Source of the DNA: Balnearium lithotrophicum
Lineage (GTDB): Bacteria > Aquificota > Aquificia > Desulfurobacteriales > Desulfurobacteriaceae
NCBI RefSeq assembly: GCF_900182585.1
Contig: NZ_FXTM01000008.1
Span: forward strand, 1-63,309
Direction of reading: 5' to 3'
Length of the DNA: 63,309 bases
Part shown: in pieces, positions 8,057 to 11,490 of the stretch
How positions within the stretch are numbered: position 1 is the first letter of the stretch
How the letters are laid out: each line of letters opens with the position of its first letter
Notes under the pieces: generated by a model
Database searches by the model: none
The model's input: the letters and a program-made list of their open reading frames with translations, nothing else
Told to the model about the DNA's origin: nothing
Made by a program: the position numbers and the translations under genes

Positions 8057-8089
8057 TTTCTCAAAATTTGAATCCATAAGGAGGTGGCG

Positions 8090-8662
8090 TTGGCTTCTAT
8101 AGATGTAAATCAAATATCAAAGGGAATGAAGTTGGAAATAGAGGGAGCTCCGTACGAAATAATCGACTATCAGCACGTTAAACCCGGTAAGGGACAGGCA
8201 TTTGCAAGAATCAAACTGAAGAATCTAAAAACTGGAAACGTTGTTGAAAAGACGTACAAGGTTGGTGAAAAGTTAGAACTCGCAGACTTTGAAGAGAGGG
8301 AGATGGAGTACATCTACAACGACGGTGAGTACTACTACTTTATGGATACGAGAACTTACGAACAGGTTGGAGTTCCAGCTGTTTCTTTGGGAGAAAAGGC
8401 AAAGTTTCTGAAGGAGAACACTCCCGTTATGGTTCAATTTTACAAAGGAGAGGCAATTTCTGTAAAACTTCCAAAGAGCATTGTTCTCCAGGTTGTTGAC
8501 ACCGAACCAGGGTTTAAGGGTGATACTGTTACAAACGTTACAAAGCCGGCTACCCTTGAAACTGGAGCGGTAATTCAGGTTCCTACTTTTATAAACGTTG
8601 GAGATTTTGTAAAGGTTAACCCTGAAACGGGAGAGTACATAGAAAGGGTAAACGTTAAGTAG
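8090..8662 (+). CDS. efp: Elongation factor P
   Basis: A 190-aa translation factor of three beta-barrel domains that relieves ribosome stalling at polyproline. With TTG at 8090 (AAGGAGG at 8078-8084) the protein begins MASIDVNQISKGM. Domain I carries the loop HVKPGKGQAFARI, with Lys at the modified position; no EpmA/EpmB or rhamnosylation gene is seen here. The C-terminal PTFINVGDFVKVNPETGEYIERV motif is complete. The efp-accB-accC order is conserved widely in bacteria. Confidence 0.96.
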   Translation: MASIDVNQISKGMKLEIEGAPYEIIDYQHVKPGKGQAFARIKLKNLKTGNVVEKTYKVGEKLELADFEEREMEYIYNDGEYYYFMDTRTYEQVGVPAVSLGEKAKFLKENTPVMVQFYKGEAISVKLPKSIVLQVVDTEPGFKGDTVTNVTKPATLETGAVIQVPTFINVGDFVKVNPETGEYIERVNVK

Positions 8663-8671
8663 GAGGATGTT

Positions 8672-9103
8672 TTGGAGAATTTGGAGAAAGTAAAGAACTT
8701 ACTAAAGTCCCTGGAGAACACATCCTTAGAGGAAGTTGAAATAGAGACGGAAGGAATCAAAATAAAGGCAAAGTTCAAAAGGGAAATTACTGTTCAAACT
8801 GTTAAACCTTCCCCTGTAAAGGAGGAAGTTGAGGTTCCTCAGGAAGAGGAATTAGAAGAGAACTACTACGTTGTAGAGTCTCCCATGGTGGGAACGTTTT
8901 ACAGAGCTCCCTCTCCGGGAGCTGAGCCATTTGTTAAGGAGGGGGATTACGTTGAAAAGGGGCAGGTTCTGTGTATAATAGAGGCTCTCAAAGTTATGAA
9001 CGAGATTGAGTCTGAAGTATCGGGAATAGTTAAGAAAGTCCTCGTTGAGAATGGTCAACCTGTTGAGTACGGTCAACCTCTTTTCTACATTGAGAAAAAA
9101 TAG
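8672..9103 (+). CDS. accB: Biotin carboxyl carrier protein of acetyl-CoA carboxylase
   Basis: A 143-aa carrier that holds biotin between AccC and the carboxyltransferase in fatty-acid synthesis. The N-terminal ~60 residues are charged and flexible, and the C-terminal biotinyl domain starts at VVESPMVGTFYRAPSPGA. The biotinylation motif reads EALKVMNEIE, so the residue before the target Lys is Leu rather than the near-universal Met, and Val follows. TTG at 8672 follows AGGAGG. It lies nine bases after efp and nine before accC. Confidence 0.93.
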   Translation: MENLEKVKNLLKSLENTSLEEVEIETEGIKIKAKFKREITVQTVKPSPVKEEVEVPQEEELEENYYVVESPMVGTFYRAPSPGAEPFVKEGDYVEKGQVLCIIEALKVMNEIESEVSGIVKKVLVENGQPVEYGQPLFYIEKK

Positions 9104-9112
9104 GAAAGTGTA

Positions 9113-10459
9113 ATGTTCAAAAAGGTCCTTATTGCAAACCGTGGAGAAATAGCTGTAAGAATCATAAGAACGTGTAAGGAATTGGGAATAAAGACAGTTG
9201 CAGTTTATTCAACGGCGGATAGGGAGTCGCTCCACGTTTACTTAGCGGATGAGGCCGTCTGTATAGGAGGGCCTCAGCCAAGCCAGAGTTACCTTAACAT
9301 ACCGGCAATAATTGCTGCTGCTGAGTTAACTGGAGCCGATGCAATTCACCCTGGGTACGGTTTTCTGTCTGAAAATCCCGGATTTGCCGAAATTTGTAAT
9401 GCCTGTGGAGTGAAGTTTATAGGGCCCTCTCCAGAAACAATGCTCTTGATGGGAGATAAGGCGAAGGCGAGGGAGATTGCAAAGAGAGCAGGAGTTCCTG
9501 TAATTGAGGGAAGTGGTGTTTGCAGGAGTGTTCAGGAAGCCCTTAAGGAAGCGGAGAGAATAGGTTATCCGCTCTTAGTTAAGGCAGCCCACGGTGGTGG
9601 TGGAAGGGGAATGAGACTGATAAGTGAACCATCGGAGGCGGAAACACTGATAGCAACCGCCATGTCTGAAGCTGAGGCTGCCTTCGGAAGTAGTGAGGTT
9701 TACCTTGAGAGGTTCATAGAAAATCCAAGGCATATAGAAGTTCAAATAGTTGCAGATAGAGGGGGAAATGTAGCAACCTTTGGGGAGAGGGAGTGTTCTC
9801 TTCAGAGAAGGCACCAGAAGGTCTTAGAGGAAGCTCCTTCATCCTTTGTCGATGAGGAGCTCAGAAAGAAGCTTTCAGAGGCAGCAAAGAGGATTGCAGA
9901 GTACATAAATTATGAGGGTGCTGGAACGGTTGAATTTTTAGTTGATAAGGAAAAAAATTTCTACTTCATCGAAATGAATACGAGAATTCAGGTGGAACAC
10001 CCTGTTACTGAAATGGTAACAGGAAAGGATTTAATTTCACTTCAAATAAAGGCAGCTTCCGGTGAGAAAATTGACTATAATCAAGTTGAATTAAAAGGAC
10101 ATGCTATAGAATTTAGAATAAACTGTGAAGATTATAAAAAAGGATTCTCCCCAGTTCCGGGAAAGATTGAAAAACTATTGATACCCGGAGGATTTGGAGT
10201 AAGGGTCGATACTCATATATACGAGGGATACCAAGTTCCCGTTTACTACGATTCTCTACTTGCAAAGCTCATAGTTTGGGGAGAGAGTAGGGAGGAAGCA
10301 ATAAGGAGAGGAAGGAGAGCTCTCTCTGAGTTTGTAATAGAGGGAAGTTTAAAAACTACAATTCCTTTTCACCTGAAATTGATAGAAACGGAGGAATTTA
10401 GAAAAGGGAATTTGAATACGAGGATTTTAGAAGAGGTTATCCTTCCCAAGATTGTTTAA
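9113..10459 (+). CDS. accC: Acetyl-CoA carboxylase, biotin carboxylase subunit
   Basis: A 448-aa ATP-grasp enzyme that carboxylates biotin on AccB using bicarbonate and ATP. The N-terminal [19 protein letters not shown], the ATP-grasp glycine loop [13 protein letters not shown] (about residue 160) and the catalytic [17 protein letters not shown] block are intact. Length is normal for AccC and not for pyruvate carboxylase subunit A (which is longer), and accB is adjacent, though some autotrophs use AccC-like subunits in pyruvate carboxylase. Confidence 0.95.
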
Positions 10460-10477: not shown

Positions 10478-10993
10478 ATGCCCAGTCAGTCGAAGTCTGA
10501 AAAGGTAAAAATATGGATTAAGGAGTACCTTTCTGAGTTTGGAGAGTACAACGGAACGATTGAGGAGCTATCAAATTTAACGAACGCCTCACCCTACATA
10601 GTGAAAAAAGTTTTAAAGGAACTTGAGAAGGAAGGTTTTCTAAAGTCTGAATCCAAAAGGGGGAAGGGGTTGACTATAAAGCTGGCCGAGTCTTCCGAAC
10701 CTCAGAAAGAGGAGGAGGTGGCCAAGGTGGAGGAGAAAGAGGAAAAACAGAAAAACGTTGAGGAAGTGGAAGTAAAGGAAAAAAAGGAAAAGGAGAAGAA
10801 GAAGTCCCTTCAGGACAGGGTACTTTCATCCCTGTTGGGAAAGGACGTTACGGTTTTCCTCATAAGTGGAACGAGATTGGAGGGAAAACTTTTGGATTTT
10901 GATAACTTTACACTATCCATGACAGCTCCAAAGGGAAAATCCTTAGTTTATAAACACGCCATTGCAACAATTCTCTATGATGTGGAAGAGTAA
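10478..10993 (+). CDS. Winged-helix/Hfq-domain fusion protein 1
   Basis: A 171-aa protein with three parts. Residues about 5-68 look like a winged helix (GTIEELSNLTNASPYIVKKV, then a Lys/Arg-rich wing). Residues 70-110 are a highly charged Glu/Lys linker. Residues 111-171 are an Hfq domain: LQDRVLSSLLGKDV keeps Hfq's LQD start, GTRLEGKLLDFDNFTL is the Sm1 motif with FD conserved, and LVYKHAIATI is the Sm2 signature YKHA. Bacterial Hfq is an sRNA chaperone forming hexameric rings, normally without a DNA-binding domain. The arginine patch of the Hfq rim is not kept (LLGKD here). The stop overlaps the next gene's ATG (TAATG). Confidence 0.8.
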   Translation: MPSQSKSEKVKIWIKEYLSEFGEYNGTIEELSNLTNASPYIVKKVLKELEKEGFLKSESKRGKGLTIKLAESSEPQKEEEVAKVEEKEEKQKNVEEVEVKEKKEKEKKKSLQDRVLSSLLGKDVTVFLISGTRLEGKLLDFDNFTLSMTAPKGKSLVYKHAIATILYDVEE

Positions 10994-11490
10994 TGAAGAG
11001 GTATAAGACCTTAGAGGAAGCCCAAATAGCCCTTATTGAACTTCTTGAGGAGAGGGGAGAGTTTAGAGGAACGATTGAGGAGTTGTCTGAGGAGCTTTCT
11101 GTTAAACCTGAGCAGGTCAAACTTGTTGTTCAGGTTTTAAAGTCATCCGGTAACGTAATTACAGAGGAGTTTGACGACCACATAATCATAAAGCCTGCCT
11201 CATCAATTCAGGTTTACCTTCCGCCGATTCTGACGGAAGAGCAGAAAGAGGAGATTGAGAGGAAGGTGGAGGAGGGTTACAAGGTTATAGCCTGTTCAAC
11301 TATGGGGGGAGTTCAGAGTAGGGAGCTCCGAAGTGCCCTTGGAAAGAGAGTTATTGTTTACTTTAGAAACGGTAGTAGATTGGAGGCAAAGCTAAAGGGT
11401 TTTGACAGGTTCTGTTTAAAGTTGAGAAACTACATGGGAAACATTCTTGCGTACAAACACGCAATTTCGACAATAGTCTATAAACCTTAA
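10993..11490 (+). CDS. Winged-helix/Hfq-domain fusion protein 2
   Basis: A 165-aa paralogue of the upstream protein with the same architecture. Residues about 5-68 are a winged helix with the same GTIEELSEELSVKPEQVKLV helix pair. Residues 70-108 are a linker (ILTEEQKEEIERKVEEGYKV). Residues 109-165 are an Hfq domain: SRELRSALGKRVIVYFRNG, RLEAKLKGFDRFCLKL as Sm1, and AYKHAISTIVYKP as an almost canonical Hfq Sm2 end. It starts at ATG 10993, one base inside the previous stop, preceded by GGAAGAG, so the two are made together and could form mixed rings. It lacks the LQD start seen in protein 1. I assign the Hfq homology from motifs by eye; function is inference. Confidence 0.8.
   Translation: MKRYKTLEEAQIALIELLEERGEFRGTIEELSEELSVKPEQVKLVVQVLKSSGNVITEEFDDHIIIKPASSIQVYLPPILTEEQKEEIERKVEEGYKVIACSTMGGVQSRELRSALGKRVIVYFRNGSRLEAKLKGFDRFCLKLRNYMGNILAYKHAISTIVYKP

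Follow-up and report, generated by a model that had tools for sequence, protein, structure and literature searches.

Hfq is regarded as a free-standing RNA chaperone. Its domains bind RNA in the cases that have been studied, the arginines of its rim drive sRNA-mRNA annealing and its Sm2 strand motif forms the edge of the ring. To our knowledge, regulators that combine an HTH with an Sm fold are known only by way of the distant WYL domain. In one such system, PafB and PafC, each of which has an HTH followed by a WYL domain of the Sm fold, pair up as a heterodimer that is activated by single-stranded DNA bound across both WYL domains (PMC6789036, PMC11804915).

The locus described here lies in a window of 63,309 nucleotides (the whole stretch of DNA that was analysed) of Balnearium lithotrophicum, whose genome comprised 1.73 Mb in 49 contigs and was 99.9% complete. 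An earlier note, made from the sequence alone, had proposed two adjacent genes overlapping by one base, each encoding a winged helix joined to an Hfq domain, and both open reading frames were found there, linked by a TAATG junction. The features of the pair and of its upstream neighbours are the following.

8084..8662, + strand: efp, upstream neighbour of the pair (NCBIfam)
8672..9103, + strand: accB, upstream neighbour of the pair (NCBIfam)
9113..10459, + strand: accC, upstream neighbour of the pair (NCBIfam)
10478..10993, + strand: gene 1 (P1), 171 aa, ATG start; winged helix, charged linker and Hfq domain (ORF, Pfam Hfq, AF2)
10490..10684, + strand: winged helix of P1, residues 5-69 (AF2; weak matches to several wHTH families)
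10655..10672, + strand: basic wing KRGKGL of P1, residues 60-65 (12-sequence alignment of the family, charge)
10691..10795, + strand: K/E-rich linker of P1, residues 72-106, probably disordered (pLDDT <50)
10805..10978, + strand: Hfq domain of P1, residues 110-167, SLQD...FDNF...YKHAIATI (Pfam, NCBIfam, AF2, Foldseek)
10990..10995, + strand: stop/start junction TAATG, one-base overlap of genes 1 and 2 (ORF reading)
10993..11490, + strand: gene 2 (P2), 165 aa, ATG start; winged helix, helix/strand connector and Hfq domain (ORF, Pfam Hfq, AF2)
11005..11196, + strand: acidic winged helix of P2, residues 5-68 (AF2, charge)
11236..11295, + strand: connector helix and strand of P2, residues 82-101 (AF2, helix 82-93 and strand 97-101)
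11311..11481, + strand: strongly basic Hfq domain of P2, residues 107-163, VQSREL...FDRF...YKHAISTIV (Pfam, AF2, Foldseek, charge)

The results given below indicate that this winged helix-Hfq pair exists and is conserved, and that it represents an architecture within the Hfq family that has apparently not been described before. The statement that no Hfq with a DNA-binding type of N-terminus had been reported agreed with our searches for Hfq with a winged helix, fusion, Aquificae and Thermovibrio, which returned no description of such a protein in the open-access literature covered, where absence is no proof. A paper on the Hfq of Aquifex mentions neither paralogs nor Desulfurobacterium or Thermovibrio.

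The Pfam Hfq profile (PF17209, cut-off 27 bits) matched both P1 (E 2.2e-14, 53.3 bits, residues 111-166) and P2 (E 2.4e-11, 43.5 bits, residues 119-162) above its cut-off, but the scores obtained with the Hfq equivalog NCBIfam TIGR02383 (P1, E 2.8e-15, 55.9 bits; P2, E 2.7e-10, 40.0 bits; cut-off 61.7) and with PRK00395 (47 and 40.1 bits, respectively; cut-off 95) remained below theirs, showing that the two domains are diverged members of the Hfq family. Solved Hfq structures were the top matches of the pair in a sequence search of the PDB. In the AF2 models, for which family alignments were the input, the Hfq domains consisted of one helix and five strands (residues 111-167 of P1 and 109-163 of P2); the P1 model had a pLDDT of 76 overall and about 84-92 in the folded parts, and the P2 model one of 82.7. 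In a comparison with the PDB by Foldseek, as the earlier note had advised, the C-terminal parts of both proteins matched solved Hfq chains, with target-length TM-scores of about 0.66-0.88 among the matches shown; the crystal structure of E. coli Hfq with double-stranded DNA (5uk7) was among those of P2. The Sm/Hfq domain claimed for both C-termini was therefore corroborated by Pfam, AF2 and Foldseek together.

Throughout the Desulfurobacteriaceae (f1), Gln8, Lys56 and His57 were kept in P1 and P2, as were Phe42, except for Tyr in two P2 sequences, and Tyr55, except for Phe in one; the proximal pocket Q8/F42/K56/H57 was invariant in P1 and, save for F/Y at position 42, also in P2. The Sm2 strand motif (YKHAIATI in P1 and YKHAISTI in P2) was nearly invariant as well. 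It had been claimed that P1 keeps the LQD start of Hfq and that P2 does not; P1 indeed has LQD and P2 lacks L7 and D9, but Gln8 persists in P2 as VQS and is invariant in f1. The mean pairwise identity of the Hfq core in the same 8 genomes was 91.5% for P1, 85.8% for the canonical Hfq and 79.2% for P2, using 55-residue cores cut at equal length whose starts lie two residues apart owing to a shorter loop.

The pair thus shares with bacterial Hfq (PF17209; Aquifex aeolicus 5szd, E. coli) the Pfam match and fold, Gln8/Phe42/Tyr55/Lys56/His57 and the Sm2 motif. In contrast, it has an N-terminal winged helix, exists as two tandem paralogs that fall into a separate clade of the tree, lacks the rim arginine patch (R16/R17/R19) in both proteins, in which the loop is two residues shorter, and carries Glu at Gln33 in both as well as Asn (P1) or Arg (P2) at Gln41, by which the distal face is altered. 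With tandem-domain Hfqs of the PRK14091 type and with multiple hfq paralogs, too, a genome encodes at least two Hfq domains; unlike the PRK14091 type, the pair has its Hfq domains in separate genes, in both of which the domain is joined to a winged helix, and the PRK14091 score was far below the cut-off. The archaeal Hfq-like MJ1435 (2qtx, 5dy9), which has the Hfq fold and was detected by sequence search, differs from the pair in being a stand-alone protein of 71 aa without a winged helix.

A search of Aquificota for a separate short hfq found a canonical gene in the same genome as the pair (G000:C4:69646-69834), located behind miaA and encoding the rim arginines. This implied that the usual sRNA functions can be carried out without the pair, and the idea that the pair replaces Hfq in f1 was rejected. 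The earlier note had weighed a separate canonical Hfq, combined with a loss of ring-forming residues in both proteins, against its own proposal; the former was present, but the latter was not observed, the Sm1/Sm2 core being intact in P1 and P2.

The winged helix proposed for both N-termini was recovered in the AF2 models, with helices at residues 6-21, 28-35 and 39-52 and wing strands at 55-60 and 64-69 in P1, and with three helices and a two-stranded wing within residues 7-68 in P2. The N-terminal parts containing it came to about 110 residues in both proteins, neither of which is a stand-alone short Hfq. No named wHTH family was matched above its curated cut-off by either winged helix in the Pfam and profile searches; the best matches were Rrf2 (23.3 bits, cut-off 30) and HTH_11 (20.5 bits, cut-off 25); GntR and HTH_Crp_2 were also matched below threshold, and three P2 relatives gave weak, sub-threshold matches to HTH_PafC. 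A winged-helix profile search of the PDB returned AdcR, TFE and MntR, PHROGs gave weak matches of the P1 winged helix to lambda-O-like and DnaD-like replication proteins, and weak matches to S19e and eS25 were also detected.

Winged helices can also be RNA- or protein-binding modules, and those of ribosomal eS25/S19e, SelB and La-type proteins bind structured RNA. The pair might accordingly be an auxiliary RNA chaperone, forming a second, specialised Hfq ring whose winged helices serve as arms for structured RNA, with a post-transcriptional function that does not involve DNA. The RNA binding of Hfq domains in studied cases, the weak S19e/eS25 matches, the probable operon with efp and the very basic Sm face of P2 are consistent with such a function. 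We nevertheless consider it rather unlikely, because DNA-binding regulators and replication-initiation proteins of phages accounted for more of the winged-helix matches and for the better ones, the rim arginines are missing in both proteins and a canonical Hfq is present.

The two proteins differed in the distribution of conserved residues and charge. In the 12-sequence f1 alignment, R61, G62, G64 and L65 of the P1 wing were invariant and positions 60 and 63 were occupied by K/R. The P1 linker (72-106) was variable in length and sequence (34% mean identity, zero invariant columns), and residues 71-107 of P2 had a mean identity of 59%. The winged helix of P1 was about neutral (mean net charge +0.4) with a basic wing and its Hfq domain had a mean net charge of +1.3, whereas the corresponding values in P2 were -7.3 and +10.7. 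These patterns favour the divided roles suggested before, and the split suggests that DNA is more likely read by P1, and RNA or single-stranded DNA more likely bound by P2. The acidic winged helix of P2, together with the weak matches to DnaD-like/lambda-O-like replication proteins (P1) and transcription factor E, could also point to a protein-interaction module, in which the winged helices would dock the Hfq ring on RNA polymerase, the ribosome or a replication protein without contacting nucleic acid; the invariance of the basic wing of P1 argues against this, and we regard it as very improbable.

P1 and P2 were homologous over their full length, with 39% identity (E about 1e-19) in genome searches and an E of 3.7e-22 when their family profiles were aligned by hhalign. 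The winged helices alone shared 41% identity (E 4e-9), so that the GTIEELS motif common to both reflects real homology. The simplest history compatible with these sequences would be that one winged helix was fused to Hfq and the resulting gene then duplicated in tandem. When a tree was built from 73 Hfq domains and 70 columns, the fused f1 domains and the P1 forms of the sister family of Desulfurobacteriaceae (f2) made up one set of 24 rows with support of 100/100, separate from the Hfqs of the canonical and miaA-linked kinds; with 70 columns, the tree does not single out the Hfq paralog that was the donor of the fused clade.

Among the 136 Aquificota genomes surveyed, P1 was found in 21 and P2 in 20 of those belonging to f1, and the two genes were adjacent in all 20 in which both could be read, representing 7 genera. 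The exceptions were G121, where the contig ends inside P2 (L103), and G130, which is 62% complete. The spacing between P1 and P2 ranged from -1 to +12 nt in the 12 genomes measured. The possibility that the pair is an artefact or a decaying hfq duplicate, to which the canonical hfq elsewhere in the genome might lend some credit, is practically negligible: it was refuted, pseudogenes included, by the 20 adjacent pairs in 7 genera and by a P1 core identity higher than that of the canonical Hfq. Those orthologous pairs likewise exclude the chance or assembly artefact that had to be considered for the original reading.

The block efp-accB-accC-P1-P2 was kept in the Desulfurobacteriaceae flanks examined (contig L099 is cut before efp), and the gene downstream of P2 varied between genomes. 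From their spacing, efp-accB-accC and P1-P2 are probably one transcription unit; a scan for consensus promoters and terminators around the pair gave counts within about 1.6 sd of those in shuffled sequences. On the opposite strand, an ORF of 217-229 aa was located between the pair and a uvrD/pcrA-like helicase in L093 (8479-9132, -) and also in L094-L097 and L101; the window did not contain it.

No comparable fusion was found in the Aquificota genomes of the survey beyond f1 and f2. When 84,980 GTDB species genomes were scanned with P2, relatives covering the fusion appeared only in Desulfurobacteriaceae (including Thermovibrio, Desulfurobacterium and unclassified members of the family), and neither a relative in IMG/VR (scanned with P1) nor one covering the protein in plasmids (P1) or phages (P2) was detected, all these scans resting on conserved peptide words or tblastn, which may miss remote relatives, including those in other phyla. 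A defence or phage origin was discarded on the basis of the viral and plasmid scans and of PADLOC and PHROGs, where only matches at the level of the winged helix were obtained.

In two f2 genomes the pair lies behind a gene named rpe from its sequence, not by profile search (L054:1492-2448 in G114 and L055:821-1758 in G113). The f2 and f1 proteins were related by hhalign (P1, E 5e-18; P2, E 1.5e-6), and the Sm parts had drifted, with an LSM match at E 0.0019 for one P1 and Hfq matches at E 0.025-0.032 for the P2s. Tyr55 and His57 were replaced in the f2 P1, and in f2 the Sm2 motif was lost while the winged helix was kept. No Hfq match at E 0.001 was found in either f2 genome, one of which is 95% complete; judging from these sequences, a loss of Hfq with retention of the fused paralogs is possible in f2.

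The order of domains, HTH followed by an Sm fold, is that of the HTH-WYL regulators (PafB/PafC, CapW, DriD, BrxR), and, as with PafB and PafC, two different HTH + Sm proteins are involved, in our case known from adjacent genes. However, the Sm domain of the pair is Hfq and not WYL, the proteins are about half as long, and they end right after the Sm domain with no C-terminal WCX ferredoxin-like domain. The WYL profile (PF13280) did not match P1 or P2 at E up to 1, and with WCX also absent, membership in the WYL family was rejected. Foldseek matched the P2 model to CapW (7tb5, wHTH-WYL; E 3.3e-4, 178 columns) with an rmsd of 19 A, indicating a likeness in domain order and not in relative placement. 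A role of the pair in filling in for missing WYL regulators was dropped, since 14 of the 22 f1 genomes had WYL matches, although that of the window had none. The genome of the window also gave two LexA-like matches, both under the cut-off of LexA (G000:C14:33351-33857, L125; G000:C13:43082-43504, L126), and it may contain diverged S24-type regulators in place of a standard LexA; a DNA-damage role of the pair, at which a loss of LexA might have hinted, was not adopted.

The CapW match, extending over both domains of P2, and the two-subunit HTH+Sm design of PafB/PafC (PMC6789036, PMC11804915) could also be taken to mean that the Hfq domains now serve for dimerisation or for holding a ligand, in the manner of WYL regulators, and that the pair acts as an HTH heterodimer without a ring. 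The loss of the Sm2 motif in f2 with a conserved winged helix would agree with this, but in f1 the ring-edge motif is nearly invariant in both proteins, for which a free dimer has no obvious need, and the WYL profile found nothing in either; this reading seems to us unlikely.

We tentatively favour, at somewhat less than even confidence, that the pair is by analogy a heteromeric, nucleic-acid-responsive DNA-binding regulator, PafBC-like but built on true Hfq domains. The Hfq scores above the Pfam cut-off with the agreement of AF2 and Foldseek, the full-length paralogy, the 100/100 tree set and the conserved adjacency, the kept pocket residues, the P1 core identity above that of the canonical Hfq, the charge split, the CapW match and the weak HTH_PafC matches all point in this direction, and precedents are found in PafBC (PMC6789036, PMC11804915) and in the E. 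coli Hfq-dsDNA crystal 5uk7. Against it, the winged helices fell below the cut-off of every DNA-binding family and such folds also bind RNA or protein; that of P2 is acidic, which is not typical of DNA binders; the CapW match concerns domain order alone and WCX is absent; most f1 genomes carry ordinary WYL proteins too; and the pocket is not essential in f2, where the pair is kept despite the drifted Sm pocket.

According to this PafBC-like model, the overlapping genes would lead to similar amounts of P1 and P2, which would come together by way of their Hfq domains, the most likely product being a mixed ring of the Sm type, already envisaged in the earlier note, or a smaller hetero-oligomer. 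The basic Hfq face of P2, with its Gln8/Phe42/Lys56/His57 pocket, would bind U-rich RNA or single-stranded DNA, and the winged helix of P1, with its invariant basic wing, would bind double-stranded DNA; a ligand on the Sm side would then alter or target DNA binding, making the pair a transcription regulator or a DNA-tethered RNA binder. The pair may in this way tie RNA (or single-stranded DNA) binding to gene control, and the efp-accB-accC operon is a plausible first target. The specific form in which an Hfq hetero-ring regulates transcription, P1 reading DNA through its winged helix and P2 sensing RNA or single-stranded DNA through its Hfq face, is in our opinion unlikely; if true, the pair would provide a transcription factor made of an Sm ring, and the HTH+Sm design would have been reached independently by way of Hfq. 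Small and probably thermostable, this pair of heat-loving bacteria lends itself to asking if DNA binding can be gated or guided by an Hfq ring and if bacterial Sm rings mix, and it bears on how WYL-type regulators could have arisen.

In the groups f3-f5 of Aquificota, most genomes had two short Hfqs and one had three. Many f3 and f4 genomes carried one Hfq in a miaA and/or hflX setting, both genes being recognised by eye, and the other elsewhere (L104-L123). The only solved Aquificota Hfq structure found in this analysis was that of Aquifex (5szd/5sze). The miaA/hflX-linked Hfqs showed a different rim loop and a VQDE/IQDE start.
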